Part shown: piece after piece, positions 17,789 through 31,604 of the stretch
Position numbering within the stretch: position 1 is the first letter of the stretch
How the letters are laid out: the number at the start of each line of letters is the position of its first letter
Source: a virus
DNA: 64,000 nt
Strand: one strand, 5' to 3'
Virus record (IMG/VR): IMGVR_UViG_3300020463_000009
Location: 1-64,000 of that record
Notes under the pieces: model-generated
Told to the model about the DNA's origin: nothing
The model's database searches: none
The model's input: only the letters and a program-made list of their open reading frames with translations
Program-made: the position numbers and the translations under genes

Positions 17789-18517
17789 ATGAATATATTA
17801 TTAACAGGCGGTGATGGCTTTATAGGACAAAATCTATATAATCATCTTATCAAAAATCACAAAGTAATTAACATAGACAAAGTTTCAGGTTATGATTTAT
17901 TAACTTGTAATTTACACTATAACGCAGACTTGGTAATTCATTTAGCAGGTCTATCAGGTGTTAGAGATAGTTTAGATAAGCCTGAAGAATATTGGAAACA
18001 AAATGTTATTGCAGGCCAGAGAGTATTTGATTTCTTTTCAGATACTAAAATATTATATGCTAGTTCATCTACTGCTTGGGAACCTTGGCGTAATCCTTAT
18101 GCTATGAGTAAATATAGTCTTGAACAAATAGCACCAGAAAATAGTTTAGGTATGAGATTTACAACCGTTTATGGACCTAGTGCAAAACCTAATATGTTAA
18201 TACCTAAAATTTTAAGAAATGATGTACAATATATTAATACAAATCATAAAAGAGATTTTATACACGTAGATGATATTATTAGTGCAATAGATATATTAAT
18301 GAGAGAAAATGTAAATGGTGCCATAGATATAGGTACAGGTCATACACACGAATTGGTGGACATTGTAGATTATTTTAAAATAGATTGTGAGAGAAAAATG
18401 GGTGGCGAAAACGAAAGACTAGATAATAAGGCTGATACAACAACACTAAATAGATTAGGGTGGAAACCTAAAATAAATTTATATAATTATATTAAGGAAA
18501 ATAGAAATGTTAACTAA
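17789..18517 (+). CDS. NAD-dependent epimerase/dehydratase (extended SDR)
   Basis: A 242-residue sugar-nucleotide epimerase/dehydratase-like enzyme. The Rossmann motif is GGDGFIG (residues 7-13), the catalytic Tyr-x3-Lys is Y104-K108 (YAMSK), and the active-site Ser cluster SSST lies at residues 92-95. At 242 residues it is shorter than the usual 310-340; the loss seems to be in the C-terminal substrate-binding lobe, so the substrate cannot be guessed. It opens the accessory cassette and would fit nucleotide-sugar supply for the glycosyltransferases that follow on the other strand. No promoter motif lies directly upstream, so it is probably cotranscribed from the structural unit. Confidence 0.85.
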   Translation: MNILLTGGDGFIGQNLYNHLIKNHKVINIDKVSGYDLLTCNLHYNADLVIHLAGLSGVRDSLDKPEEYWKQNVIAGQRVFDFFSDTKILYASSSTAWEPWRNPYAMSKYSLEQIAPENSLGMRFTTVYGPSAKPNMLIPKILRNDVQYINTNHKRDFIHVDDIISAIDILMRENVNGAIDIGTGHTHELVDIVDYFKIDCERKMGGENERLDNKADTTTLNRLGWKPKINLYNYIKENRNVN

Positions 18518-19001
18518 AGTGAATTTGAAAGACCATTTTGTAAATGCTGTATATGTCAATAATGAAAGAACATTAATAGAAGTTTTTTATACTTCACCAG
18601 ATTTCAAAGAAACTCATAACGCAATCATAGAACACGATACTGAACATCCAGACTTTCAACATTTAATGAAATTTGTAAGTGTAGATGATTTACACGAAAA
18701 TACTTACAATCAAAAAAAATTAGAAAGAAAAGAGTTTGAAGAAGAAGCTATTAAGATTGCTAAAAAATCTGGTCTAGTTTTTGATTACAATAGAATTGAT
18801 ACTAAATTTTTTCCTGCTTTAGTAAAAGCATTATTTGTAGATGAAGAAAATGATGACCACTTATTTGCTTTAAAACTTGCATTATTCGAAGTAGAAAAAA
18901 TTAGAGATACAAAAAACGAAGATTTAAAAGTAGAGTTAAGAAAATCTAAAACAAAACTAGAAGCTTTAGATAAAGCAATTAATATTTTAAGAAGTAATTA
19001 G
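18507..19001 (+). CDS. Hypothetical charged protein
   Basis: A 164-residue acidic/basic-rich protein overlapping the epimerase by 11 bp. Residues 70-90 and 125-160 are strongly helical with Lys/Glu heptads. Its 3' end overlaps the convergent glycosyltransferase gene by 23 bp, so the two transcripts are antisense over the stop codons. No family recognised. Similar proteins occur in T4-like cyanophages next to tail genes, to my recollection, so it may be a structural-module gene and not part of the metabolic cassette. Confidence 0.55.
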   Translation: MLTKVNLKDHFVNAVYVNNERTLIEVFYTSPDFKETHNAIIEHDTEHPDFQHLMKFVSVDDLHENTYNQKKLERKEFEEEAIKIAKKSGLVFDYNRIDTKFFPALVKALFVDEENDDHLFALKLALFEVEKIRDTKNEDLKVELRKSKTKLEALDKAINILRSN

Positions 19002-19551
19002 ACCACCAGCCAGACCAACCTTTTTCCATAAGGTGTTGCATTTGACCAAAAGTAATCATATTTTCTTTAGTAGGTTTATCGTGAATATGGTTTTTAATTG
19101 ATGAACAAAAATGTCTACCATAAGTATAGTATTTAATTTCGTGATAATAAAACTCATCACTACCCTTATTGTATTTCTTTAAGTAATATTCGTCATTTGA
19201 TTTAAACTTATCCCAAATATAAGATACATCACCTGTCCAAGATACGACAGACGAGTTTAAAGGTGTATGGGCTTTCTCTCGCCACCAAGAATCATCTAGT
19301 AATGTAAAATGTTTTCTAACTAATGGTCTTAACTTATCAAATATACATACGTCTAAATCAAAGTATAAATTTTCACCGTCTCTAAACATATCATACATTT
19401 GAAGTTTGTTATACCAATTACCATATAAATCTTTTTCAATGACCTCAAACTTATCATACTTGATACCTGAATAAGTATCAATCATATGTTTTAAATTATC
19501 AACGTGCCATTGAGTAAACTTATCACCAAATCTACAACAAATTATTCTCAT
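18979..19551 (-). CDS. Putative glycosyltransferase (GT-A, DxD)
   Basis: A 190-residue protein with a GT-A type fold pattern: a beta strand at the N-terminus (MRIICCRFGDKF) and an acidic DxD-like motif at Asp65-Leu-Asp67 within LYFDLDVCIF, the site that binds the metal and nucleotide sugar. Several Trp/Tyr-rich segments follow (DDSWWREKAH; GWSGWWSNYF at the end). It resembles small GT8-like or capsule-type transferases encoded by marine phages. It is the last gene of the minus-strand operon and overlaps the upstream gene by 4 bp. Donor and acceptor are unknown. Confidence 0.65.
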   Translation of the reverse strand: MRIICCRFGDKFTQWHVDNLKHMIDTYSGIKYDKFEVIEKDLYGNWYNKLQMYDMFRDGENLYFDLDVCIFDKLRPLVRKHFTLLDDSWWREKAHTPLNSSVVSWTGDVSYIWDKFKSNDEYYLKKYNKGSDEFYYHEIKYYTYGRHFCSSIKNHIHDKPTKENMITFGQMQHLMEKGWSGWWSNYFLKY

Positions 19552-20417
19552 TTTATTTCTGTTATCTTAATGCCTCTATTTCTATGAGAGTTTATTTTAA
19601 ACTCTGCTTTTTCAGGTATGTTATGAGTATTACCATATGGGTCTTTTACTTGACCTTTATCTTTAGTTATGTCAACTATTTTTGCTTTTCTCATTTGTTT
19701 ACCAGTTCTAGGGTGTGTTTCTTGGTCAGTTATTGTAATCTTACTACCATTAGCAGCGCCTAACATTAATTCAGTTTCGTCAGATTCCCAACGAGGTTTA
19801 TCATTTCTAGGATAACCAATACCTAAACCATAACATATTTCTTTGGTACCATTTTTTATGTCATCCATAATACCTAATTTTTTAGGCCAATAATCATCAC
19901 CATTTAAATCATTATGACTTTTATTAGCGCCTGTGGCAAATCCCATTGAGGCAGCTGCTTTCATTGTTAGACCTAAAGATATACCAATACTACAATAGGC
20001 ATTTTGCCATCTGTTTTTATCTGTATTAGATTTTAAAGTACCATCAGCGTGAGAGTTTAATTGACTATTAGGTTCTTTTGCCACCCATACCATATAGATA
20101 CTAGCATTTGATTGTGAGTTTCTCCAGTTTGCTGGAGGATTTCTTCTATGAGTATAACCCCAAGTATATCTTGATATCTCTTGTATTACTTTTCTATCAG
20201 CCGTATAATATACATCAAAATATCCTTCGTGTTGTTTAGTAGGACTATTTGTTGCTATCCATAATAATTCATTAACAATATCATCTACTAAAAGAGGGTT
20301 TAATTTACTCCACTTTTCATAATCCCAATTTCTTTGGCATTTTTGAATTTTATTATATATTTCTCTTTCTTTGTCCCATTCATAAAACATATGCATAATT
20401 TTATTCTCAACGTCCAT
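19548..20417 (-). CDS. Nitroreductase-family flavoprotein with C-terminal extension
   Basis: A 289-residue protein with nitroreductase-family features: TNSPTKQHEGYFDVYYTAD near residues 56-74 (the SPS/TxxNxQPW-like FMN-binding region), a central NAYCSIGISLGLTMKAAASM segment near 139-158 (the family's long dimer helix, with G-F-A-T-G following), and GLGIGYPRN near 198-206. The last 60-70 residues, rich in Lys, Gly and beta strands, are an extension not usual for the family. FMN-dependent oxidoreduction is likely; the substrate is unknown. It abuts the upstream gene with no gap. Confidence 0.65.
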   Translation of the reverse strand: MDVENKIMHMFYEWDKEREIYNKIQKCQRNWDYEKWSKLNPLLVDDIVNELLWIATNSPTKQHEGYFDVYYTADRKVIQEISRYTWGYTHRRNPPANWRNSQSNASIYMVWVAKEPNSQLNSHADGTLKSNTDKNRWQNAYCSIGISLGLTMKAAASMGFATGANKSHNDLNGDDYWPKKLGIMDDIKNGTKEICYGLGIGYPRNDKPRWESDETELMLGAANGSKITITDQETHPRTGKQMRKAKIVDITKDKGQVKDPYGNTHNIPEKAEFKINSHRNRGIKITEIK

Positions 20418-21122
20418 TTAAATATCCTTTATCTTATTATCAGGTCCAGCATAATGTATAATCTTTATATACTTATGTGCCTCACCCATTATTGCATAGT
20501 CTGTTTTAAATTTTTTGCAATATAATTTCTGTAATTCTAAATCTTTTCTAAAATCATTTGATTTTTTGTATAAAATTCTACCTGGTAATTTTTTAACTTT
20601 ATATCTTTCTTTAGCCGTTGAATTAACATAGTTTTGTTCACCATAATATTTTTTATGTACAATACCTTCATTATAATAATAGTTTTGTTTATAGTCTGGA
20701 TTTAGTTCAAAATCTTCCCATATCATTTTTAAAGTACCAGATTTAAATTTATAAAAACCACCGTTCATACCTAATTTATTATCCCACCAAGCGTCATAAG
20801 TTAATAACTCACCATCTTTTACTTTAGCAGTTAATATATCATCAATATTATTAACTATTACCTGGTCAATATCCATAATTATAATATCATCACCTGGTTT
20901 TTGATAACCATATAAAGGACTAAAGAATTTTAATTTATGCCAATGTTTTTTTATATTACTATGATGATTATAAGGTAATACTATATCTGCCTCAACATCC
21001 GTATCACTAATACATACAGATTGAAAAGGCACACTACTATGCTTTCTAATACTATTATAAAAATTAGATACGTAGTCTGGTGTATATAGACCTTTAAAAT
21101 ATACGGTACATATTTTAAGCAT
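20418..21122 (-). CDS. Putative glycosyltransferase (GT-A, DxD)
   Basis: A 234-residue protein starting MLKICTVYFKGLYTPDYVSN. The motif IIIMDIDQVIV places a DxD at Asp84-Ile-Asp86, followed by the usual MNGGFYKFKSG acceptor-side loop near residues 119-129 and a conserved IIHYAGP near the end. These are hallmarks of GT8-like or related retaining GT-A enzymes. It overlaps the next upstream glycosyltransferase by 8 bp. The acceptor may be a virion or surface glycan, which is inference. Confidence 0.7.
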   Translation of the reverse strand: MLKICTVYFKGLYTPDYVSNFYNSIRKHSSVPFQSVCISDTDVEADIVLPYNHHSNIKKHWHKLKFFSPLYGYQKPGDDIIIMDIDQVIVNNIDDILTAKVKDGELLTYDAWWDNKLGMNGGFYKFKSGTLKMIWEDFELNPDYKQNYYYNEGIVHKKYYGEQNYVNSTAKERYKVKKLPGRILYKKSNDFRKDLELQKLYCKKFKTDYAIMGEAHKYIKIIHYAGPDNKIKDI

Positions 21123-21942
21123 TTACATTTCTCCAAACAATATCAAATCTTTTGTTGATAGCGTGTATTAATTTTGTATCTTCAGGTATGAATAAGTTAT
21201 CATAGAAAAAGTAATGCCATTTATCATCAAGCCATTGTACAGATACATCTTTTTCTTTTAACTTAACACTAAACAAAGTTTCATTATCATAACCAAAGTA
21301 ATCTACTATTTTTTTAGGAAACATACTTTTGTCAAATTTTAATTGTGTCATTGTAATCATATCTTGGTCAAATTGATTAAAATACTCTAGTTGAAATAAA
21401 TGAGATTTATCTATACCTATAATACCAGTATTAACTACATCAACCTCTGAGCTAAGACCTCTATGTAATAACATTGCTTGAGCATTGTAATACTTTGAGT
21501 TAGGACTTCTAATTGTTTGAGAAGTTTCAGATATATCTTCTATCTTAGCGACCTTATTATTATTATTTGCAATAGCAATACCTTTAGATAAATCAAATAC
21601 TTCAAAAAAGTTTTCTTTAGTATTAGGCACCACATCAAAATCAATGTATAACATCTGGTCGTACTTTGAAGAAAACTTATAGAGTAAATATATCTTAAAA
21701 AAGTTTATTATGTTGTAAGTTGTTAAGAAAGGATATTTACCTTTCATTTCATCATAATATTCTTTATACTTATTTACTAATACAAAGTCAGCACCAATAC
21801 TATCAGCATATTCTTTTTTACAATCAATAAGTCTTTGATAGTTTTCTTTAAACTCATTTTTTGTATTTAAGTTTGTTTTTTGATTATCAACAAACTCGTT
21901 ATCAGGTACTTCAATGTATATACTATAAATTAATTTTTTCAT
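21115..21942 (-). CDS. Putative glycosyltransferase (GT-A, DxD)
   Basis: A 275-residue protein starting MKKLIYSIYIEVPD. I prefer the ATG at 21942 over a TTG four codons upstream. The motif MLYIDFDVVPN gives a DxD at Asp101-Phe-Asp103, and VVNTGIIGIDKSH around residues 169-181 is the typical sugar-acceptor loop. The gene overlaps the methyltransferase-like gene by 20 bp. It is the third GT-A enzyme of the operon; the three differ in sequence, which suggests different linkages in one oligosaccharide. Confidence 0.7.
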   Translation of the reverse strand: MKKLIYSIYIEVPDNEFVDNQKTNLNTKNEFKENYQRLIDCKKEYADSIGADFVLVNKYKEYYDEMKGKYPFLTTYNIINFFKIYLLYKFSSKYDQMLYIDFDVVPNTKENFFEVFDLSKGIAIANNNNKVAKIEDISETSQTIRSPNSKYYNAQAMLLHRGLSSEVDVVNTGIIGIDKSHLFQLEYFNQFDQDMITMTQLKFDKSMFPKKIVDYFGYDNETLFSVKLKEKDVSVQWLDDKWHYFFYDNLFIPEDTKLIHAINKRFDIVWRNVNA

Positions 21943-22519
21943 ATTTTCCAACAAGAGTAAATCTCAAGCCTCTTTCATCTTCGATTATACCTTTATCTAA
22001 AACTCTTGCATTGTCTGGTAATTGTTTTTGAAACTCATCAATACCACCAACACAATTAGTATGGTCTTTTATACTTCTCATATTATTTGATTGATAGGCA
22101 AAATAGGCATTCGTATCTAGTCTTAATTCTTTCATAGGTCGCATATGTTCGCAAGACGTATTAATAATTAAATTTGCATTTTGTATTCTACCTAATCTAT
22201 CTTCATTCCAAACATCACTTGTAATAAAATCAACATTATCATAATGATTAAATAATCTATGTTTAGCTAAACCAAGAACCTCATCATTTAAATCTATTAA
22301 GGTTATTCTTTTTACTTGTTTAAAAGCAGGTATTAATATACTACCATACCAACCACCAAGTATAACTATTTCACTATCACTATCAACCATATTTAAATCA
22401 TTAACCATTTTAATTAGCATTTCTTTAGATTTAAATTGATTAGGACTAAATGAATCTAAAAGGTCCATATTATGCCTACCTTCTCTCATTATATTTTTAA
22501 ATAATTGTAAATCTATCAT
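21923..22519 (-). CDS. Methyltransferase-like Rossmann protein
   Basis: A 198-residue protein. Residues 51-60 (IVILGGWYGS) resemble motif I of SAM-dependent methyltransferases, with Asp76 (ITLIDLND) as the expected acidic ribose-binding residue and DNVDFITSDVWN near residues 93-104 as the adenine-side motif. A stretch LIINTSCEHM near 116-125 follows as motif IV. The glycine loop is GGWYGS, not GxGxG, so cofactor binding is likely but not certain. It overlaps the small ORF upstream by 4 bp (ATGA). Confidence 0.6.
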   Translation of the reverse strand: MIDLQLFKNIMREGRHNMDLLDSFSPNQFKSKEMLIKMVNDLNMVDSDSEIVILGGWYGSILIPAFKQVKRITLIDLNDEVLGLAKHRLFNHYDNVDFITSDVWNEDRLGRIQNANLIINTSCEHMRPMKELRLDTNAYFAYQSNNMRSIKDHTNCVGGIDEFQKQLPDNARVLDKGIIEDERGLRFTLVGKYEKINL

Positions 22520-22614
22520 TTTAATTTCCCCATAACTATTAGTCTTGCAATTTTAGGTGAATAATTGTTAATACAAATATATTCTACCAATCTTTTTCTA
22601 AACATAAAAAGCAT
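22516..22614 (-). CDS. Small basic 32-aa peptide in operon junction
   Basis: A 32-residue ORF (starts MLFMFRKRLVEYIC, ends VMGKLK) that fills exactly the gap between the nitroreductase and the methyltransferase-like gene. Its start overlaps the upstream stop as TAATG and its stop overlaps the next start as ATGA. Double coupling makes translation plausible, at least to carry ribosomes across the junction. Basic and slightly hydrophobic; no family recognised. Confidence 0.4.
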   Translation of the reverse strand: MLFMFRKRLVEYICINNYSPKIARLIVMGKLK

Positions 22615-23303
22615 TACTTCTTCCATTTAATAATCTCCTCATACTCTGGTTTAATATCTTCTTTTTCTCTTCCGTAAGACCTTAACATTTCATATCTATA
22701 AAGTTCACTATATCCTGCTGACATTAAAACTATTGGTCTATAATCAGCGTCTTTTAATCCTATGTCGTGCCATTTTTCTATCTCTCTAAAAAAACAAGAA
22801 GTATATGATACATCTATATTTTGTTCAAGTAAATAACTTGATAAATTTTGTATAAACATTCCTACTTCAACTGCCGAAGTATCAATAAAATTGTGTACTC
22901 TACTTGGCCAGGCTTGGTCAAAAAACATTCCTTCTTCAACTTGTTTTTCATAAAATTTATTAGGATTTCTAGGTTGAGCGTGAATACAAAATAAGTAAGG
23001 ATTAGATTTTATATGTTCATAGTAGGGGTTTGGTTTACCACTCTCTGTTCTTGTTGCCTCACCTCTTTGCATTGCTCTTTTCTCGGCGTCTTTATGATTT
23101 TCTGCAACCATTTTCCAAACTTTTATTTTTTCTTCTTTATGTTCAGGACCATAAACAATTACTTTCCAAGGCATAGCATTATTTTTAGATGGTGATGTTT
23201 TCCAGGCCTGCCATAATGCAAACTCTATTTTATCTTTTGGTGGCACATCATCTTTATAAAATCTAACGTGATGTCTTTTTTCTAATAAATCAAACGTACT
23301 CAT
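22614..23303 (-). CDS. Nitroreductase-family FMN oxidoreductase
   Basis: A 229-residue protein. Arg10-His-His-Val-Arg14 (EKRHHVRFY) is the N-terminal RxxR FMN-phosphate contact of nitroreductases, TSPSKNNAMPWKVIVYG near residues 36-52 is the conserved SPSxxNxQPW segment, and AVEVGMFIQNLSSYLLEQ near 144-161 is the dimer/FMN helix. Length is normal for the family. It overlaps the carbamoyltransferase by 4 bp. The reaction is unknown; in natural-product operons such enzymes oxidise or reduce pathway intermediates. Confidence 0.8.
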   Translation of the reverse strand: MSTFDLLEKRHHVRFYKDDVPPKDKIEFALWQAWKTSPSKNNAMPWKVIVYGPEHKEEKIKVWKMVAENHKDAEKRAMQRGEATRTESGKPNPYYEHIKSNPYLFCIHAQPRNPNKFYEKQVEEGMFFDQAWPSRVHNFIDTSAVEVGMFIQNLSSYLLEQNIDVSYTSCFFREIEKWHDIGLKDADYRPIVLMSAGYSELYRYEMLRSYGREKEDIKPEYEEIIKWKK

Positions 23304-24787
23304 TTATACATAACCTTATCATTAATTACTAATATATCTAATGCAGTTTTTTTAAAAGTTTTTAAAGCGTGTTCAGGTGAATCTACAATAGGTTCTTGAC
23401 AATTAAAACTTGTATTTAATAACATAGGTACACCTGTCTCTTTGTAAAATGCATTTATAATATCGTAAAACTTTTGATTAAACTTTCTATTGACCGTTTG
23501 TATTCTTGCAGTATTATCAACGTGAGTAATACCAGGTACTTCAGCTGATTTAACTTTACATATACGAGACATAAAAGGACTTGGTAATCTTGTATCAAAA
23601 TAATCTTGATAATGTTCTTCTAATACTGCTGGTGCAAATGGTCTAAAATCTTCTCTATTTTTAATTGTACTATTAATAATATTCTTAATATTAGGATTTC
23701 TAGGGTCTGCTAATATACTTCTATTACCTAATGCACGATTACCACTTTCTGCTCTATCTTGAAACCAACCAACTATTTTACCACTAGCGATTTCTTTTGC
23801 AATCTTTTCATAGTCAGCGTATATAAAACCAGGAAAAGAATAATTAGAACCAGCAAAAGTATCTGTTTTATGTACTTCATCATTTAAATTATAACTTGCG
23901 TGTTGATAAACACCTAATGCTTGGCCTTCATCACCTACAGCAGGTGGTACATATACGTTTTCATAATGATTTAAAAACTCTTCATTCATATAACCATTGT
24001 ATGCAACACCACCAGCAATACAAAGATTTTCGCAAGTTTTAAGTGGATAGATATGCTCTTTTATTTTGTCTAAAGTAAATTTTTGTAGAGTATGTGCTAA
24101 GTCTTCTTTACCATACTTTTCTATATTAATCAGATTGTGTATATCATACTTCTTCTCTCGGATATCGCCGGAGATTATCGTTTCAAACACATCATAGTAG
24201 TATTGATTAAAACTACCATAGCCGACTAACCCCATCAGTTTACTTGCGCCTAATGAACCAAATCCAGTCAGTTTAGCCATTTGATTCCATAACCACCCTA
24301 TTGGTAACTCTTTTGATAGGTCTTTTATGTTTGTATCTTTATCAACAAATATACATCTAAATTTAGCACCTATTCCGTCAATGGCAAGTATATCTGAAAA
24401 CTCAAAGTCAGAATTTATCAAAGCATATGTGGCGTGAGCTTGGTGGTGGTCACAATAGTAAATATCATCTTTGAACACATAGTCAAATAATTTAGTTGGT
24501 ACAAAATTAAGAAACTCTTTATCAATAATTTCTTTTATCATTCTAATACCACCTAGAGTATAAGAAAATGCTAACACACCATCTGTCTTCTTAAAATATT
24601 CATTTACAAATTCATTGTTTAGTTTATAATCATTTGTATTTAACTTATCATTATCGTGGTCATATGCTTCTACGTGATAAGGTAGATTATGTTTAAATCT
24701 AGTATATCTTTCCATTTGTTTATGTAATTTGCCATCATAAACATTATGGTCGTGTAAGTTTAAAGCTACAGCAGTTATTTTATGCAT
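23300..24787 (-). CDS. NodU/CmcH-type carbamoyltransferase
   Basis: A 495-residue enzyme of the carbamoyltransferase family (NodU, CmcH, TobZ), which transfers a carbamoyl group from carbamoyl phosphate through a carbamoyl-adenylate. Seen: an N-terminal LHDHNVYDG (residues 11-19), the metal-binding DHHQAHATYA (His114, His115, His118), IDGIGAK near 134-140, CIAGGVAYNGYMNEE in the Kae1-like domain, and the YrdC-side signature RAESGNRALGNRSILADPR. It is somewhat shorter than NodU (about 560-600). The acceptor could be a sugar or a hydroxymethylated base. It overlaps both neighbours. Confidence 0.92.
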   Translation of the reverse strand: MHKITAVALNLHDHNVYDGKLHKQMERYTRFKHNLPYHVEAYDHDNDKLNTNDYKLNNEFVNEYFKKTDGVLAFSYTLGGIRMIKEIIDKEFLNFVPTKLFDYVFKDDIYYCDHHQAHATYALINSDFEFSDILAIDGIGAKFRCIFVDKDTNIKDLSKELPIGWLWNQMAKLTGFGSLGASKLMGLVGYGSFNQYYYDVFETIISGDIREKKYDIHNLINIEKYGKEDLAHTLQKFTLDKIKEHIYPLKTCENLCIAGGVAYNGYMNEEFLNHYENVYVPPAVGDEGQALGVYQHASYNLNDEVHKTDTFAGSNYSFPGFIYADYEKIAKEIASGKIVGWFQDRAESGNRALGNRSILADPRNPNIKNIINSTIKNREDFRPFAPAVLEEHYQDYFDTRLPSPFMSRICKVKSAEVPGITHVDNTARIQTVNRKFNQKFYDIINAFYKETGVPMLLNTSFNCQEPIVDSPEHALKTFKKTALDILVINDKVMYK

Positions 24788-25604
24788 TTAACACCTTCGC
24801 ATATTTTCTAAAAGGAAAATGACCTTTTGGTGGTACCCATTCGGTACAAGTTTTACAATAGTTCTCATACTTAAATAATTGCCAGTTCATCATCTTATCT
24901 ATATTCTCTTGCGTTAAGTCAAACGTTTTAGATAGTTCTTTATTATTAGCAAACTTTTTACTACAATGTACAATATGTCTCTTTTCAAAATCTATTACAG
25001 GCACCTGTGGAAAAGCTGCACACATTTTCCTATCTATCTCTTCAGCCTGTATAACATCTGTAAATTCTGGTGACCTGCCGTTAAATGCTTTCCACATAGT
25101 ATTCTTATGATTTAATTTTTCTAATACTTCAGGATATTTGTCTTTGTATTTAAAGTAATTTGGTGTTCTAACAACAACGTTAAAATTATTCTTATCATTT
25201 TCTGATACATAATCAAAATTACCTAGTTTTTTAACCTCATCTTCATACCAATCTAATATATTATGTTCAACATATAATATATCTTTATCTTCTAATATAT
25301 GAGGATATCTTTTTCTAATAAATGAGTTTGATAATACTGAACATATAAAATTAGGATACTTTTTAATTTCATTAATAACCTCATCTAAATTTTTAATTAA
25401 ACCTGGCTCACCACCTAATAAGTTAATTCTTACTTTATAATTTTTTAAATACTCTAAACACATTTTCAAAAAATCCATATCAACCGTTAAGTTTCTCATT
25501 TCTAAAGTATAACTTGTACAATAATGACAATCTTTATTACACGACATAGATAGAAAGAAATCTATCGCTCTATAATTATCTTGTATTTCTTTAAATGTTT
25601 TCAT
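24780..25604 (-). CDS. Radical SAM enzyme with C-terminal Cys motif
   Basis: A 274-residue protein with the radical SAM cluster motif Cys22-x3-Cys26-x2-Cys29 (MSCNKDCHYC) and the glycine-rich SAM-binding NLLGGEP at about residues 57-63. Towards the C-terminus, CAAFPQ, HCSKK and YCKTCTEW give further Cys residues that could bind an auxiliary cluster as in SPASM-type enzymes, although spacing is shorter. The substrate is unknown. It overlaps the neighbouring genes by 8 and 14 bp, so it is an integral member of the operon. Confidence 0.85.
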   Translation of the reverse strand: MKTFKEIQDNYRAIDFFLSMSCNKDCHYCTSYTLEMRNLTVDMDFLKMCLEYLKNYKVRINLLGGEPGLIKNLDEVINEIKKYPNFICSVLSNSFIRKRYPHILEDKDILYVEHNILDWYEDEVKKLGNFDYVSENDKNNFNVVVRTPNYFKYKDKYPEVLEKLNHKNTMWKAFNGRSPEFTDVIQAEEIDRKMCAAFPQVPVIDFEKRHIVHCSKKFANNKELSKTFDLTQENIDKMMNWQLFKYENYCKTCTEWVPPKGHFPFRKYAKVLNA

Positions 25605-25896
25605 ATATTGTTTTAAAAAAGAAAGTATTAAATGCTATTAATAATTTTTCTTTTGGTTTATCTGTTAAGTATGAAGTTATATCAATCCATTCTGGCATTT
25701 GATAGGTCTTCTCAATTAAATAGTGGTAGATATCTTCTACCTCTTTATCAACTAAACTTTCATCAAACATATCATCACCAACAACTTTTCGCATAGTTTG
25801 ACAAAGTGCAATCGGACACTTATCAGTTATATCAATCATATTACCTTTTTTGTCAATATAACTAAATTGAGTAAAAGATTTATTGTGTTCTATCAT
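25591..25896 (-). CDS. Hypothetical small protein between radical SAM and aminotransferase
   Basis: A 101-residue acidic protein, starting MIEHNKSFTQFSYIDKKG. It has two Cys (CPIALC, residues 28-33) and otherwise a helical pattern. No membrane segment. It overlaps the aminotransferase by 4 bp and the radical SAM gene by 14 bp. Size and position would suit a carrier or partner protein of the radical SAM enzyme, but there is no phosphopantetheine Ser motif or peptide leader motif, so this remains a guess. Confidence 0.55.
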   Translation of the reverse strand: MIEHNKSFTQFSYIDKKGNMIDITDKCPIALCQTMRKVVGDDMFDESLVDKEVEDIYHYLIEKTYQMPEWIDITSYLTDKPKEKLLIAFNTFFFKTIYENI

Positions 25897-26936
25897 ATTA
25901 ATAGTAAGATAGTATTAATTACTTTATCTAGTTCCTCTTTTTTCATAAACGGATGTAAAGGTAATGTTAATATTGAATCACAAACTATTCGTGTAATAAA
26001 ATCATCATCTTTTCTATGTTCTATATTTTCATACATTATATTATCTGAAATAGGTTTATCATAATGTATTTGACCTAATTTAGCCTTTACTCTGTCTCTT
26101 ACTTCTTTGTTTTGAAATCTAACTACATATTTGTGGTAGTTATGATTTAGATTATCAGGATTACTTTGTACGGTTACATATTCTTTTAATTTATCATCAT
26201 AGTATCTGGCATTTGCCTGTCTTCTTTGAATATAATCACCTAGTTTTTTTAATCTAAAATTAATAAATTCAGCATTAAATAATAACATTTTAGAATTGTA
26301 ACCTAGTTGTTTATGTTCGCCGTGTTTTCTTAATCTTTTAAATATCTCTGTATTACCATTTGTTAGTATCGCACCACCACCAGCAATACCAGCCACAACT
26401 TTATTTGCATTAAAACTTAACGTACTAATATCACCGATTGTTCCTGCTAAAGTACCATTTAAACTAGAACCAAGAGATTGGCAAGCGTCTTCTATAAAAT
26501 GAATATTTTTCTCTTGACAAAATTGTTTTATCTTGCTAGTATCAGACATATTACCAAATAAGTGAGGATAAATTATGGCTTTTACTTTGTCAGAATACAT
26601 CCTTTTAATACTATCTAAAGACATATGATAATCAGGCATATTAATATCACAAAATACTGGTGTCGCACCTACCATTGATATACAAGACGCAGTTGATATC
26701 CAAGAAAAGTTTGTTGTTAATACTTCATCACCTTTACCAACACCTATTTTTAATAATGAAAAAAATAATGCGTCTGTACCACTATTACAAACAACAACAT
26801 TTCTACCAAACATATCAGATAAACTATCTTCAAGAAACTCGATATTACCTTCTTGATTATCTTGTCTCATAACTTTATCAAATAGTTTTAAATATTCGCC
26901 AGTATAAATTTCGTATTCTTTATCCCAACCGTGCAT
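25893..26936 (-). CDS. DegT/DnrJ/EryC1/StrS PLP aminotransferase
   Basis: A 347-residue sugar aminotransferase-family protein. Seen: NSGTDALFFSLLKIGVGKGD (residues 51-70, PLP-phosphate region), ATPVFCDI (91-98), IEDACQSLGS with Asp150, and the PLP lysine Lys179 in STLSFNANKVVAGIAGGG. Length is normal to slightly short. The family makes 3- or 4-amino-deoxy sugars on nucleotide donors. It overlaps the SGNH-like gene by 17 bp. It supports a sugar-tailoring role for the operon. Confidence 0.92.
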   Translation of the reverse strand: MHGWDKEYEIYTGEYLKLFDKVMRQDNQEGNIEFLEDSLSDMFGRNVVVCNSGTDALFFSLLKIGVGKGDEVLTTNFSWISTASCISMVGATPVFCDINMPDYHMSLDSIKRMYSDKVKAIIYPHLFGNMSDTSKIKQFCQEKNIHFIEDACQSLGSSLNGTLAGTIGDISTLSFNANKVVAGIAGGGAILTNGNTEIFKRLRKHGEHKQLGYNSKMLLFNAEFINFRLKKLGDYIQRRQANARYYDDKLKEYVTVQSNPDNLNHNYHKYVVRFQNKEVRDRVKAKLGQIHYDKPISDNIMYENIEHRKDDDFITRIVCDSILTLPLHPFMKKEELDKVINTILLLI

Positions 26937-27606
26937 ATAACTCCTCCGCTATTACTTGATGACCTTTTTCATTAGGGTGGCCATCTTCTCTTGATATGTA
27001 ATCTTCAGGTTTTTTCATAAAGTCTTGCATAGAAAAACCACCAAGTTCTTTACTAGGAAAACCTATAAAATTATCATCAATTAAATTATATAAGGGATTT
27101 TTTTGCATTTCAAAATAATGTTCTTGCCTTGTTAAAAGTTTACCTCTAGCTTTAGGCCAGACTTCGGGGTTATCAGTCCACCTTGCAGTTTCATATGAAT
27201 CAATTATTTGTACTTGTTTATATTTTAATCCTAATGATTTACATAATTGTTGAAAACTATATTGAAACATTAAAGTTCTACCTATAAAATAATGATTGTC
27301 GCCTTTTTCGTCCCAAATGTCATTATTCCAATGAGACTTATCTAAATAATAATAATCTCTACGTGCAGCTCTTGACCAACCTGCTAACACTAGACCTATA
27401 TTTTTTGCGTTTATATTTTTGACAATACTTGTATAAATGTATTCTTGACCGGCACCTGATTGACCTACGTTTATACAATTCATATCTAACTTTTTAGCTA
27501 AGAGTTGAGGCCATTTTGGCCAAGAACAATCTAACTCTGGATGATGAGCAGATTGATAATTTTCTGTCGTATAACTACAACCACTAACTAATAATATTTT
27601 TTTCAT
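26920..27606 (-). CDS. SGNH/GDSL-like hydrolase
   Basis: A 228-residue protein with SGNH-hydrolase blocks: block I GCSYT (Ser11), an Asn/Gly region CINVGQSGAGQEY near residues 44-56, and block V Asp208-Gly-His210 (DGHPNEKGH). The Ser-Asp-His triad is therefore present in order. Such enzymes add or remove acyl groups on sugars or lipids. A central Trp-rich portion (ETARWTDNPEVWPKA) is unlike typical GDSL esterases. It overlaps both neighbours and belongs to the same operon. Confidence 0.75.
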   Translation of the reverse strand: MKKILLVSGCSYTTENYQSAHHPELDCSWPKWPQLLAKKLDMNCINVGQSGAGQEYIYTSIVKNINAKNIGLVLAGWSRAARRDYYYLDKSHWNNDIWDEKGDNHYFIGRTLMFQYSFQQLCKSLGLKYKQVQIIDSYETARWTDNPEVWPKARGKLLTRQEHYFEMQKNPLYNLIDDNFIGFPSKELGGFSMQDFMKKPEDYISREDGHPNEKGHQVIAEELYARLG

Positions 27607-28480
27607 TTATAGTCTCAATCAATTTTACTAATATTTTTGCATTATCTGAATACATCTTTTTTGTAGGCACAGGTCGTTTCATATAAACAGGACCGCCATC
27701 TTTTATATTTTTATCTCTTAAATATTCTATATTTTTACCTAGCCATTTACATTCTTGTATAAGTCTTGGCGCTGGGTCATAATAATTCTTTGTATAAACA
27801 TATGTGTTAAAAAGACCTAATAAATTATGAACAGGCGCAATTATATTATTGTAGTCTATTATAGTATAATCCTCGTCATATGTCAATATTCCGTGTGATG
27901 TAAAGCACCTAGGACACTCTTTTATCCATCTATCCACCTCTTTATAATACACGTCATTTGTGCCTAAAAATAGATACTCAAATTGTACGTCATTTTTTAC
28001 TGGTTTATACTCTTCAAAATTAATCATTTTCTCATATTGAGTACCAACACCATTAGGGTAAACATCATAATCGCATAAGTCATAAACTTCTTTAGGTTTA
28101 AAATATTCTAGTGCAATCGGATATTCTTTTACGTGATTTTCAGAATATACAGATATCAGCTTATTGTTAAACAATAGATGACCAGTCATTAATTGGTCAG
28201 TAGAATATTCGTCTCTACTTTTCCATAACAAAGTTAACATACTTCTACCTAATATAAAAGTAATATCATTTGTTTCTGGTGTATAGAAATCAAATATTAT
28301 ATTAGTACAAGTTTTGTACTTTTCTGTTATTGCGTCTATGTAATGTTTTTTTGAAAAGTTATAATGAGTGATTATTACTAATTGAGCTTCAATCCCTATC
28401 GAGTTTAAATAACAACAATGCTCATAACTATAACAAAGCAATCCATCACCAGGTTTACTGGTACATACTATATTAATCAT
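27584..28480 (-). CDS. Putative glycosyltransferase, first gene of minus operon
   Basis: A 298-residue protein. The N-terminus (INIVCTSKPGDGLLCYSYEH) and the C-terminal block PRLIQECKWLGKNIEY (about residues 248-263) look like a GT-B-type transferase. No DxD is obvious, consistent with GT-B. The start lies at 28480, 5 bp from the minus-strand late promoter at 28486-28493, with no ribosome-binding site between them, so the transcript may be leaderless. It overlaps the SGNH-like gene by 23 bp. Confidence 0.55.
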   Translation of the reverse strand: MINIVCTSKPGDGLLCYSYEHCCYLNSIGIEAQLVIITHYNFSKKHYIDAITEKYKTCTNIIFDFYTPETNDITFILGRSMLTLLWKSRDEYSTDQLMTGHLLFNNKLISVYSENHVKEYPIALEYFKPKEVYDLCDYDVYPNGVGTQYEKMINFEEYKPVKNDVQFEYLFLGTNDVYYKEVDRWIKECPRCFTSHGILTYDEDYTIIDYNNIIAPVHNLLGLFNTYVYTKNYYDPAPRLIQECKWLGKNIEYLRDKNIKDGGPVYMKRPVPTKKMYSDNAKILVKLIETINEKNIIS

Positions 28481-28485
28481 ACGGA

Positions 28486-28493
28486 TATTTATA
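28486..28493 (-). promoter_or_regulatory. Late promoter driving the minus-strand operon
   Basis: TATTTATA on the plus strand, that is TATAAATA read leftward. It is the only such site upstream of the 13-gene minus-strand operon and shares two bases with the rightward promoter at 28492-28499; together the two sites make the exact 14-bp palindrome TATTTATATAAATA. Confidence 0.65.
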
Positions 28494-28499
28494 TAAATA
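28492..28499 (+). promoter_or_regulatory. Late promoter driving the plus-strand oxygenase operon
   Basis: Exact TATAAATA, overlapping its leftward twin by two bases. The first gene begins at 28529 after an AAAGGTGATGAA ribosome-binding sequence. Confidence 0.75.
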
Positions 28500-28528
28500 G
28501 GAGGAACATATATTTTAAAGGTGATGAA

Positions 28529-29146
28529 ATGAATTATAATAATTTACTGACTTTTGGTGATGTTATAGAATTGAGATTAAATTGTAATGTCTCTAAGCTT
28601 CTGTATAATACAAAACAATATGAATGGAAGCGATATAACCCCAGAAAAGATATTCCTAGATACGGCTTAAGTGTTACCAGTTTAGACGGTAGTTTAAACG
28701 GCATAGATTTAGATTCTATTGCAGAATACAATAAAGAGAATGGTACATCATATAACGAAAGTTCATTTAAAACTTTTACAGACGTATATAAGAATTGTTA
28801 TGAAACAAGAAAACTAGTAGAGCCCTTTGAGCCTTGGTTATGGCGAACACATTATTTAAATTTTAAAAGAGGTGGATTTTTTCCACCACATAGAGATATG
28901 AGACACGTAGGTGAACAAGAGTCTTTTAGAATATTAGTGCCTTTAAAATGTTGTAATCCACCAGGTATGTTTTTTATGTATGACGGTAAACCTTTACATT
29001 TTAATATGGGTACAGCATACTTTGTAAACACAAATAAAATGCATAGTATATTTTCGTATGAAGATAATGCTTATATGATGGTAATGAATGTAGAATGTAA
29101 TGAAGAATCTTTAAAAAAAGTAGGTGAATTAATCAGATGGAAATAA
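28529..29146 (+). CDS. 2OG-Fe(II) oxygenase-like protein
   Basis: A 205-residue protein. I start it at 28529, after AAAGGTGATGAA and downstream of the late promoter; a longer reading from 28418 would cross the promoter. The iron-binding facial triad is His121-x-Asp123 (PPHRDMRH) and His172 (NKMHSIFS), with FRILVPL between them as the core strand. This is the pattern of small aspartyl/asparaginyl-hydroxylase-like or prolyl-4-hydroxylase-like oxygenases. The substrate is unknown. It overlaps the next gene by 10 bp. Confidence 0.75.
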   Translation: MNYNNLLTFGDVIELRLNCNVSKLLYNTKQYEWKRYNPRKDIPRYGLSVTSLDGSLNGIDLDSIAEYNKENGTSYNESSFKTFTDVYKNCYETRKLVEPFEPWLWRTHYLNFKRGGFFPPHRDMRHVGEQESFRILVPLKCCNPPGMFFMYDGKPLHFNMGTAYFVNTNKMHSIFSYEDNAYMMVMNVECNEESLKKVGELIRWK

Positions 29147-29838
29147 CTAGAGAAAAAGTATTTACAGATTTAGTATGTGTTGCTAATATAGGTCAAGTGA
29201 GTCCTGAAGAAGAATTAAAATTAGCAGAGTCTTTAGGTAAAGTTCAAAAGCCAGAGAACGAAAGACAATTAGAATTACATAAACAATTTAAAGGAGAATT
29301 ACCTGGTATAGTTCACGTTACCGAAGGTGGTTTATTTGGTCATAAAAAACTTTTAGATTGGCACGCCAATAAACCTAGCGACCCTAATAGAGCTTCGATA
29401 GTTTGGATTTATGCAGTTAAAGGTAGTGAGGGTAGTATCACTAGTTGGATTGATAATAAGAAAGCATATGAAGATTTACCAGATGATATAAAAGCACATT
29501 GTCATAATGTAAAATTTACCTGTGGTTTTAAAAGAGGTGGTTATACAGACGACCCTACTTTTAAAGAACATCATAATAAAGATAAAGAATATAAATTAAT
29601 CTATATAAATGAATATGGTCAAAAAGGATTATTCTTTCCTTTTTTACAAATTATGGATGGAATACCAAAGGCATTATACGATTACTTAAAGAATCATATT
29701 TTAAAAGATAAATATAGATATGACCATCATTGGAAAGATGGCGATTTAGTTGTTAGTGAACAATGGTTAACAATACACAAAAGACACGCCTTTGAAAAGA
29801 TGAATGAAAGGCTAATGCATAGAATAGCAATATGGTAG
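29137..29838 (+). CDS. TauD/TfdA-like oxygenase
   Basis: A 233-residue protein resembling the TauD/TfdA family of 2OG-Fe(II) dioxygenases. LDWHANKPSDPNRASIVWIY near residues 73-92 is the strand carrying the proximal ligand; here it reads His76-x-Asn78, where most members have His-x-Asp. The distal His is probably His214 in WLTIHKRHAF, followed by the terminal Arg-rich RLMHRIAIW. The Asn may weaken iron binding or mark a different reaction (halogenase-like members lack the acidic ligand, though typically as Ala or Gly). It overlaps the desaturase gene by 7 bp. Confidence 0.75.
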   Translation: MEITREKVFTDLVCVANIGQVSPEEELKLAESLGKVQKPENERQLELHKQFKGELPGIVHVTEGGLFGHKKLLDWHANKPSDPNRASIVWIYAVKGSEGSITSWIDNKKAYEDLPDDIKAHCHNVKFTCGFKRGGYTDDPTFKEHHNKDKEYKLIYINEYGQKGLFFPFLQIMDGIPKALYDYLKNHILKDKYRYDHHWKDGDLVVSEQWLTIHKRHAFEKMNERLMHRIAIW

Positions 29839-30464
29839 AAACATTAATTTTAGGAACAATCTGGTATCAAATAATAGCAATATTTGGCCTATCAATAGGA
29901 TTACATAGATACTTTACTCATAGACAAAATTTTAAAATGTCTCCTATGTTAGAAAATATAATATTATATTTAATTGTATTAACAGGTGCTAAATCACCAT
30001 TAGGTTGGGCAGCTGCTCATAGAGTTCATCATCAACATTCTGATACTGAAAAAGACCCACACTCTCCTAAACATAAAGGTTTTTGGTATGTTCTTTTAAA
30101 TAGATGGATGTTTGAATATCCTAATATTAAAAGAAGTCTAGTAAAAGATTTATTGAAAAATCCTAGAGTTATGTTCTTTCATAGAAACTATAATAAGATA
30201 CACTTAATTAGTGCTGTTTTATCTTTATTAATTAGTTTTAAATTTTTTATTGGTTTTATTGTAATGCCTTTTGTATTGAGTTATATATTTTATGGTTTGT
30301 TTAATACATTAGGTCATAAGAATGGTAAACCAGTAACCAATCATATCATAAATTTATTTGCAGCTGGTGAAGGATATCACGATACACACCACGAAAATTG
30401 GAAGAAAATAAGATTAGGTAAGTATGACTTATCAGGATTGATAATTGAGAAAGTATTAAGATGA
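29832..30464 (+). CDS. Membrane fatty-acid desaturase (delta-9-like)
   Basis: A 210-residue integral-membrane di-iron desaturase. All three His boxes are present: His25-x4-His30 (HRYFTH), His63-x2-His66-His67 (HRVHH), and His183-x2-His186-His187 (HDTHH). Hydrophobic segments lie near residues 5-23, 42-60 and 122-160. Full-length acyl-CoA/acyl-lipid desaturases are about 270-330 residues; this compact form lacks some terminal sequence but keeps the metal ligands. It would introduce a double bond into host fatty acids and so change membrane fluidity. It overlaps the neighbours by 7 and 4 bp. Confidence 0.9.
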   Translation: MVETLILGTIWYQIIAIFGLSIGLHRYFTHRQNFKMSPMLENIILYLIVLTGAKSPLGWAAAHRVHHQHSDTEKDPHSPKHKGFWYVLLNRWMFEYPNIKRSLVKDLLKNPRVMFFHRNYNKIHLISAVLSLLISFKFFIGFIVMPFVLSYIFYGLFNTLGHKNGKPVTNHIINLFAAGEGYHDTHHENWKKIRLGKYDLSGLIIEKVLR

Positions 30465-31063
30465 AGAATAGAAATGATTTACCTAATTATAAAAAAATAG
30501 GTGTAAAAGTTGATACAGGTAAAATACTTAAAATTTTAGAAGATAATAAACATAAACTTATTAAGTACAGAGATAATTTAAATGTTAAATGTGCTACGCC
30601 ATTTTTAAATGAATTATATGAACAAATACCTATTACAGAATTAACAGAGGGTAGTGATTACACTTTACCTTTAGCTGGTCATAGAGACGTTAAATATGAT
30701 GAAAGAAATTATACAACTTTAATAGAATGTTTGAGAGGTACATATATTGAAGAAGTAATGAATATGTTTAAATCAAAACCTACAAGAGCAAGATTTATAA
30801 TTAAGAAACCTGGTGCTCATATTTTACCTCATATGGATTATGATACGACTTATAGTGTGAGATATTTTATTCCCTTAAAAACAAACGAATGGTCGTTTAC
30901 AGCAGTTAAGAGAAAGAATGAAGAACCAGAATTATTAAGTATGAAAGCAGATGGTTCAGTTTACTTTGTTAATCAAGGTTGGACACACTCTGCTTGGAAT
31001 TTTGGTAAAGAAGATTGTATTAGATTAATAGTTGCAGTAAATGGACAAACAGATTTACATTAA
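30461..31063 (+). CDS. 2OG-Fe(II) oxygenase, Asp/Asn hydroxylase-like
   Basis: A 200-residue protein with His124-x-Asp126 (LPHMDYD), His176 (WTHSAWN) and Arg188 (CIRLIVAV), which are the two His, one Asp and the 2-oxoglutarate-binding Arg of the cupin-fold dioxygenases related to aspartyl/asparaginyl beta-hydroxylase. VRYFIPLK and GSVYFVNQG are the core strands around the site. It is distinct in sequence from the oxygenase at 28529. It overlaps the desaturase by 4 bp and the next gene by 23 bp. Confidence 0.8.
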   Translation: MKNRNDLPNYKKIGVKVDTGKILKILEDNKHKLIKYRDNLNVKCATPFLNELYEQIPITELTEGSDYTLPLAGHRDVKYDERNYTTLIECLRGTYIEEVMNMFKSKPTRARFIIKKPGAHILPHMDYDTTYSVRYFIPLKTNEWSFTAVKRKNEEPELLSMKADGSVYFVNQGWTHSAWNFGKEDCIRLIVAVNGQTDLH

Positions 31064-31604
31064 CGATATTATTGAAGATAAAGATAAGTTAATTAAACTA
31101 TCGAAAGAAGCTTCAATAGATTCACCACATAACTTTCACGATTTTGAAAAAAGAATACCAGACTATTTAAATTATCACGTTGTAGAATTAGATGATGAAG
31201 TTATTGCAATGGCAGGTATGTTTCAAAGTAAATTTTGGCCATCTGATTATGTAAGAGTATTAGATAGATGTTATTACTTTAAGAAAGCTAGAAGTAGCAC
31301 ATTATCATTTTATAATGAAAAAGACTTAAAGGCAACAGCTTCAAATTATCTATTGCCAATTCATTTAGAAATTGCTATATCTAAACACTTAACACCTTTC
31401 TTCTCAATTGCAGGTATTCATAGAAGACCAGCTATGGAAAGAATGATAGATATATGGAATAAAAAGAATAGTCTAAAACTAAAAGTATTAGATAAAATGT
31501 ATTTCACCTGTAATCACAAAGTATCAGACAACACAAACGATATGTGTTGGCAGAATATAGCTATACCTGAAGAGTACGATAGATTTGATTTGCCTACTCG
31601 GTAG
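31041..31604 (+). CDS. Hypothetical protein, last gene of oxygenase operon
   Basis: A 187-residue protein. YHVVELDDEVIAMAGMFQS near residues 45-63 resembles the first strands of GNAT N-acyltransferases, and FSIAGIHRRPAMERMIDIW near 121-139 could be the later helix, but I do not see the Q/RxxGxG/A acetyl-CoA loop, so the family is unproven. It overlaps the upstream oxygenase by 23 bp and the convergent gene at 31594 by 11 bp. Confidence 0.55.
   Translation: MDKQIYINDIIEDKDKLIKLSKEASIDSPHNFHDFEKRIPDYLNYHVVELDDEVIAMAGMFQSKFWPSDYVRVLDRCYYFKKARSSTLSFYNEKDLKATASNYLLPIHLEIAISKHLTPFFSIAGIHRRPAMERMIDIWNKKNSLKLKVLDKMYFTCNHKVSDNTNDMCWQNIAIPEEYDRFDLPTR

Follow-up and report, generated by a model that had tools for sequence, protein, structure and literature searches.

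A conserved, modular gene cassette of pelagimyophages with a probable role in glycan building

A cassette of 13 open reading frames (ORFs) occupies positions 18979-28480 of a viral DNA stretch of 64,000 nucleotides (nt) (IMG/VR record IMGVR_UViG_3300020463_000009, positions 1 to 64,000; hereafter the window), with all ORFs on the minus strand, antisense to the neighbouring genes. The window comes from a pelagimyophage, a T4-like myovirus of SAR11, and the cassette is a real unit that recurs in relatives. It is probably a late-expressed glycan-building module of this SAR11-infecting phage, making a sugar chain that bears amino and carbamoyl groups. We infer here every chemical step and the order of the steps, together with substrate, product and acceptor: a radical S-adenosylmethionine (SAM) enzyme would oxidise a sugar or cyclitol at one hydroxyl, giving a ketone, a DegT aminotransferase with its C-terminal domain would convert the ketone to an amine, and a carbamoyltransferase would then carbamoylate a hydroxyl. 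Further trimmings might come from the methyltransferase-like and SGNH proteins and from the optional nitroreductases, and three GT-A-type glycosyltransferases and one GT-B glycosyltransferase would build the decorated chain. Its acceptor would probably be a tail protein or another protein of the phage virion, or an outer-membrane glycan of the host.

A conserved cassette and its setting

The first-pass annotation had described 13 overlapping or abutting ORFs, which proved correct, with overlaps of 4-32 nt (it had given 1-23 bp) and one junction without a gap. At the 3' end, 18979-19551 overlaps 19548-20417 by 4 nt, 20418-21122 abuts the latter with zero gap, and 21115-21954 overlaps 20418-21122 by 8 nt. 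The overlap of 21923-22519 with 21115-21954 is 32 nt from the listed TTG start and about 20 nt from an ATG four codons in. An ORF of 36 codons (22516-22626) shares a 4-nt ATGA overlap with 21923-22519 and 13 nt with 22614-23303, after which each ORF overlaps the one before it: 23300-24787 by 4 nt, 24780-25604 by 8, 25591-25896 by 14, 25893-26936 by 4, 26920-27606 by 17 and 27584-28480 by 23. A single transcript, as previously supposed, is plausible from this arrangement. Below, g01 denotes 18979-19551 (the last gene), g03 20418-21122, g04 21115-21954, g05 21923-22519 and g12 27584-28480 (the first gene). The GC skew and AT skew change sign across the block, as expected because its genes sit on the other strand, and a search against Rfam gave no match. 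Homologues were found in relatives for 12 of the 13 ORFs; for the 36-codon ORF the homologue search matched only the window's own copy, and it is probably no functional gene.

The same cassette is present in the isolate Mosig EXVC030M (MT647606.1; isolated on Ca. Pelagibacter ubique HTCC1062) and in more than 100 IMG/VR contigs, and is therefore more than a chance arrangement. In Mosig it comprises genes Mosig_00082 to 00094, at the same site, on the same strand and with the same flanks, being bounded by an epimerase gene 3' of VrlC and by oxygenase, desaturase and tail-fibre genes. Shared core genes are about 40-86% identical to those of the window, but in Mosig the aminotransferase is fused to the 101-amino-acid (aa) domain that is separate in the window, the first nitroreductase stands at the opposite end, and two additional radical-SAM-type genes are present. 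Several of the Mosig genes are listed merely as hypothetical or as molybdenum cofactor enzymes; Mosig_00083, annotated as one of the latter, is a homologue of the GT-B glycosyltransferase g12, and Mosig_00085 resembles a detached SPASM domain. Synteny between the window and Mosig covers VrlC, baseplate and tail-fibre genes, and glycosyltransferases also occur there, as in the host recognition cluster of pelagimyophages. Judged by this gene order, the cassette lies inside that hypervariable cluster, which according to the main text of Zaragoza-Solas et al. 2020 (PMC7029224) starts at VrlC, extends to the neck gene gp14 and carries tail fibres and glycosyltransferases including GT8, with radical SAM cassettes noted within it. 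It is this cluster, and not the lipopolysaccharide (LPS) clusters of P-SSM2 used earlier as a yardstick, that forms the relevant comparison. A term search of that main text found no carbamoyltransferase and no nitroreductase, and the present gene set is not described there; the literature searched contained no description of this operon. Among 50,697 phage records at an E-value of 1e-5, the radical SAM gene together with the first and last genes was found only in Mosig, while IMG/VR has 155 stretches coding for the radical SAM protein.

Conservation was followed in two samples, both picked by similarity and hence not random samples of marine phages: 42 loci centred on g01 with at least 9.5 kb 5' of the last gene, some of them from near-identical contigs, and a carbamoyltransferase-centred sample in which identical sequences were counted once. 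In the first, g03, g04, g05 and the radical SAM gene are present in 42/42 loci, the carbamoyltransferase in 41/42, the aminotransferase in 39/42, the SGNH gene in 37/42 and GT-B g12 in 34/42. The fixed core thus consists of the carbamoyltransferase, the methyltransferase-like protein and the three GT-A-type glycosyltransferases, usually with the GT-B and SGNH proteins. Both nitroreductases are optional accessories (22614-23303 in 33/42 loci, the nitroreductase-like 19548-20417 in 18/42), so that the redox enzymes had been misjudged when the nitroreductases were counted as a mark of the pathway. Conservation across marine viral contigs had been named as a check on the operon, with members scattered independently in relatives as the objection; since g03, g04 and g05 each occur in 71/71 distinct carbamoyltransferase loci, that objection does not hold for the core. 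The idea of one pathway stands for this linked core and less well for the exchangeable sugar-making part and the optional nitroreductases. The organisation into a fixed core and an exchangeable sugar part, with block inversion and a promoter switch, is new, also relative to the main-text account of the host recognition cluster (PMC7029224).

A cellular origin was considered and rejected, the radical SAM gene being present in only three metagenome-assembled genome (MAG) contigs of the genome collection, at least two of which (L084, L085) have phage flanks. These contigs (L083, L084 and L085, in GTDB MAGs labelled Pelagibacter, Rhodobiaceae and Gammaproteobacteria) are probably pelagimyophage fragments; L083 bears cassette genes only.

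An exchangeable part with a probable role in sugar making

The sugar-making part consists of a radical SAM enzyme (24780-25604, minus strand; PF04055, 4.4e-8) with a predicted twitch-type C-terminal domain, the 101-aa protein (25591-25896, minus) and a DegT/DnrJ/EryC1/StrS sugar aminotransferase (25893-26936, minus; PF01041, 1.2e-67), whose nearest solved structures are scyllo-inositol transaminase (7b0d, 2.3e-51) and also QdtB. In 48 of 79 loci, including Mosig, the 101-aa protein is fused in frame to DegT, which identifies it, by comparison with these relatives, as the aminotransferase's C-terminal domain in detached form. The three genes also come and go together. The radical SAM gene is present in 61 of 69 distinct loci, accompanied by the 101-aa domain in 61/61 and by the orthologous DegT in 60/61; in the remaining eight, which have no radical SAM gene, neither the domain (0/8) nor the orthologous DegT (0/8) was found. 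In place of this part, three loci (L180, L183, L219) have a nucleotide-sugar epimerase/dehydratase of the short-chain dehydrogenase/reductase (SDR) type, together with a DegT other than the orthologous one. That an SDR and a DegT stand in for the radical SAM enzyme and DegT suggests that the radical SAM enzyme would supply the keto-sugar, acting as the ketone maker.

In three further loci other radical SAM genes fill the exchangeable slot, one of them fused in frame to the carbamoyltransferase (L100:3846-6713, L138:2645-5527, L285:3994-6900). The radical SAM domain here, which in L138 has a SPASM-like N-terminal part, forms the N-terminus of a carbamoyltransferase of about 960 aa, and two further radical SAM genes lie next to the fused gene. 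A fusion with the cassette's own radical SAM protein was considered for L138 and L285 and rejected, the fused domain being a different protein. Variant cassettes also have neighbours coding for QueC-like proteins of the PP-loop type that bear Cys motifs at the C-terminus (L219:19566-20285, L296:7570-8391, L085:8-730).

The radical SAM protein has invariant cysteines at C22, C26 and C29 (CX3CX2C) and four auxiliary ones at C195, C214, C250 and C253. In its structural model, built on 22 close sequences, a hairpin (202-213) lies between the first two auxiliary cysteines and a helix (232-239) precedes the CXXC, the C-terminal part being of low confidence. In a twitch domain the ligands are laid out as Cys, beta hairpin, Cys, helix and CXXC, and the conserved cysteines together with the predicted hairpin and helix agree with such a domain holding a fully ligated cluster. 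The best Foldseek match was BtrN (1.3e-3; mean predicted local distance difference test, pLDDT, 67); the matches also include SpeY, a further dehydrogenase of the twitch radical SAM class. BtrN oxidises a hydroxyl of an aminocyclitol, and the pairing of BtrN with DegT in the butirosin 2-deoxystreptamine pathway offers the same oxidise-then-aminate logic, a twitch-type radical SAM enzyme beside a DegT/DnrJ-type sugar aminotransferase. However, the phage protein is very weakly similar to BtrN by sequence (E about 0.1) and is a dehydrogenase by prediction only.

The enzyme that would act next, at 23300-24787 (minus), is a predicted NodU/TobZ-type O-carbamoyltransferase (PF16861, 5.7e-65; PF02543, 6e-20) that matches GdmN (3.3e-45) and TobZ (1e-40). 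It shares both Pfam domains (Carbam_trans_N and Carbam_trans_C) and an aligned HHxAH motif with the O-carbamoyltransferases NodU, TobZ and WapO, but its N-terminal domain is shorter; WapO acts on a heptose of the LPS core.

Several points weigh against this reading of the cassette. Genes for a nucleotide-sugar pyrophosphorylase, a flippase, a polymerase or a ligase are lacking from it; a glycan pathway offers no obvious role for the nitroreductases; and g12 is also similar in fold to T4 alpha-glucosyltransferase, an enzyme whose target is DNA. The joint loss of radical SAM gene, DegT and 101-aa domain amounts to about two independent events on the carbamoyltransferase tree, and with only two such events a sign test for co-loss cannot reach significance. 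The radical SAM model is poor, with a best Foldseek E-value of 1.3e-3, and viperin and QueE profiles match the core domain by sequence as strongly or more strongly; the low-confidence model and these similarities mean that ketone making stays a hypothesis, the reaction not being fixed by them.

Radical SAM enzymes and flavin enzymes of the nitroreductase fold are common in peptide natural-product clusters. The cassette could on this ground be read as a small-molecule pathway resembling those of ribosomally synthesised and post-translationally modified peptides (RiPPs), in which radical SAM enzyme, nitroreductases and small protein would make a soluble natural product. This is improbable: only one small protein is conserved, and it belongs to the aminotransferase as its C-terminal domain; moreover, nitroreductases can be missing, whereas the GT-A-type trio is among the most constant parts. 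Both candidates for a RiPP precursor peptide were rejected, the 101-aa protein as a DegT domain and the 36-codon ORF as unconserved, leaving no conserved precursor gene. A decorated-glycan pathway, as the first-pass annotation had proposed, fits best.

Orientation, promoters and the likely acceptor

Where the flanks are readable, the cassette runs antisense to its neighbours in 65 of 79 carbamoyltransferase loci and is co-oriented with them in 14. At least four changes of orientation fall on the tree, a number that holds over bootstraps, so the tree indicates no fewer than four inversions of the cassette as a block. In both orientations it is adjoined by the same pair of genes (plus strand in the window, 17789-19001: a sugar epimerase/dehydratase-like gene at 17789-18517, PF01370 5.1e-24, and a 164-aa gene at 18507-19001). 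No terminal repeats able to drive inversion were found inside either end region, each searched on its own.

Expression late in infection, which had been proposed, gains support from a T4-type late motif, TATAAATA, directly 5' of the first cassette gene; the window has 17 motifs of this type, a total not above chance, and 14 of them lie 5-29 nt ahead of an ATG. A palindrome, TATTTATATAAATA, at 28486-28499, between the cassette and the plus-strand gene, would serve as a divergent pair of late promoters for both directions. In the window (28480-28499) and in several distinct relatives (L005, L086, L087, L104, L177 and L185), the distance from the beginning of the minus-strand TATAAATA to the cassette's first AUG is exactly 13 nt. 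By the rules of T4, a late motif 13 nt before the AUG would put the start of the mRNA at the AUG, giving a leaderless late transcript. Among antisense copies in which the GT-B gene comes first, 41/45 have the late motif NATAAATA (13% of shuffles) and 35/45 a sigma-70-like promoter matching at 10 or more of 12 positions (7% of shuffles), against 1/14 and 0/14 respectively in co-oriented copies, which lie directly 3' of virion-region genes and have no promoter of their own. These motifs suggest that an antisense cassette usually has its own late promoter and a co-oriented one rides on tail-gene transcription.

This pattern bears on the question of what the glycan decorates. A quite credible alternative, with the same glycan chemistry, is that the cassette alters the LPS or another surface glycan of SAR11, blocking superinfection or changing how a receptor is displayed, and does not act on the virion. 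Remodelling of the host envelope has been proposed for the glycosyltransferases of pelagimyophages in the main text of Zaragoza-Solas et al. (PMC7029224), and in bacterial LPS cores both carbamoyl groups and enzymes of the GT8 and GT-B types occur (wapO; PMC8005017). The sigma-70-type promoter in 35/45 antisense relatives could give early expression, and relatives of the carbamoyltransferase in the host point the same way. A homologue is present in 113/197 genomes of the SAR11 family. In two of these (L324, L326) a NodU-type carbamoyltransferase lies in or beside a NeuB/DegT/SDR nonulosonate cluster, with Gfo/Idh/MocA and methyltransferase genes and, in one, a cytidylyltransferase gene also among the neighbours, so that in these two of the genomes examined the related enzymes appear to lie in surface-glycan clusters of nonulosonate type; in a third genome the homologue is near DegT, methyltransferase and ABC-transporter genes. 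Against envelope remodelling, the window's close relatives have a late-type promoter only (best sigma-70 match 9/12), co-oriented cassettes are promoterless and directly follow virion-region genes, and the cassette encodes neither a membrane transporter nor an acyl-carrier step. The late promoters and the co-transcription with virion-region genes favour decoration of the virion; the parallels in the host and the promoters of sigma-70 type seen in relatives favour the envelope.

Remaining genes and DNA modification

The enzyme set listed by the first-pass annotation stands in part. By profile matches, the carbamoyltransferase, DegT, radical SAM and nitroreductase (22614-23303) assignments are solid, those of the GT8 and SGNH/GDSL proteins are weak, and the second nitroreductase is suggestive only. 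The last gene, g01 (18979-19551, minus), which is kept in relatives, encodes a small GT-A-type glycosyltransferase-like protein (PHROG 1962 glycosyltransferase, 6e-6) with a DxD motif (YFDLDVCI) spotted by inspection, its D65 and D67 being invariant in the alignment. It is joined by g03 (20418-21122, minus), a GT-A-type glycosyltransferase (PHROG 1962, 3.4e-13) with an invariant DxD (IIIMDIDQV) seen on inspection of the alignment, and g04 (21115-21954, minus), which is GT8-like (PF01501, 7.1e-5, a little short of the Pfam cut-off; DxD MLYIDFDVV). A Rossmann methyltransferase-like protein is encoded by g05 (21923-22519, minus; profile against the PDB, MJ0882 methyltransferase, 3.6e-6). The accessory at 22614-23303 (minus; PF00881, 1e-13) is a nitroreductase-family flavin mononucleotide (FMN) enzyme that is mobile inside the cassette, its counterpart lying 5' of g12 in Mosig and others. 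The other accessory, 19548-20417 (minus), may be a divergent nitroreductase-like flavoprotein (PF00881 E-value 0.082; 13.5 bits, below the 23.5 cut-off), with reductases of the nitroreductase fold as the top, weak matches of its profile in the PDB (E 0.07-0.2). The product of 26920-27606 (minus) resembles an SGNH/GDSL hydrolase or acyltransferase (PF13472, 3.9e-4, under the cut-off; GCS, GxSG and DGHP motifs by eye). Beyond the cassette, divergent plus-strand genes at 28418-31604 are TauD-like oxygenase, fatty-acid-desaturase-like and Asp/Arg-hydroxylase-like, and their membership differs strongly among relatives.

Sequence searches gave no family for g12 (27584-28480, minus); its predicted structure (pLDDT 90.5) matches GT-B enzymes (8xsg 2.5e-4, BshA, T4 alpha-glucosyltransferase, WaaG/WaaC). 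The resemblance to the T4 enzyme leaves a small chance for DNA hypermodification, which the first-pass annotation had raised as an alternative and in which the carbamoyltransferase and glycosyltransferases would tailor hydroxymethylated bases. Phages with a 5-hydroxymethylcytosine carbamoyltransferase exist (MetaGPA; PMC8670742), and their enzyme belongs to the same superfamily and is likewise phage-encoded. In that work, however, carbamoyltransferase and PF00303 occurred together on modified contigs only, the carbamoyltransferases of unmodified contigs being flanked by genes such as glycosyltransferases; in the present cassette, too, the neighbours are glycosyltransferases. No partner hydroxymethylase was found: PF00303 (dCMP hydroxymethylase/thymidylate synthase) matched in 0/6 possibly incomplete records (G000, Mosig, two contigs of 166-171 kb and two smaller ones), the control search matching in 9/14 genomes, and ThyX was found in 2/4 records, Mosig and one large contig. 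A Tet_JBP search was uninformative, its control also being silent. As no base hydroxymethylase was found in these six records, DNA hypermodification is very unlikely.

Returning to the glycan module, we propose more tentatively that it is a modular, diversifying viral pathway in which a radical SAM enzyme would replace, as source of the keto-sugar, the usual nicotinamide adenine dinucleotide (NAD)-dependent nucleotide-sugar enzyme and feed the aminotransferase and O-carbamoyltransferase, a route absent from the host genomes searched and varied from phage to phage by swapping the sugar-making part. Among the 197 SAR11-family genomes, a homologue of the radical SAM protein was found in one only, on contig L083, which carries cassette genes alone. 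The ocean's most abundant organisms and viruses include SAR11 bacteria and their phages, and since the cultured phage Mosig carries the cassette and grows on HTCC1062, the prediction is directly testable. If true, it would account for some of the pelagimyophage host recognition cluster, which is poorly annotated, would provide a case in which a glycan made by a phage varies in the manner of an antigen, and would extend the enzymes of amino-sugar synthesis by a radical SAM route.

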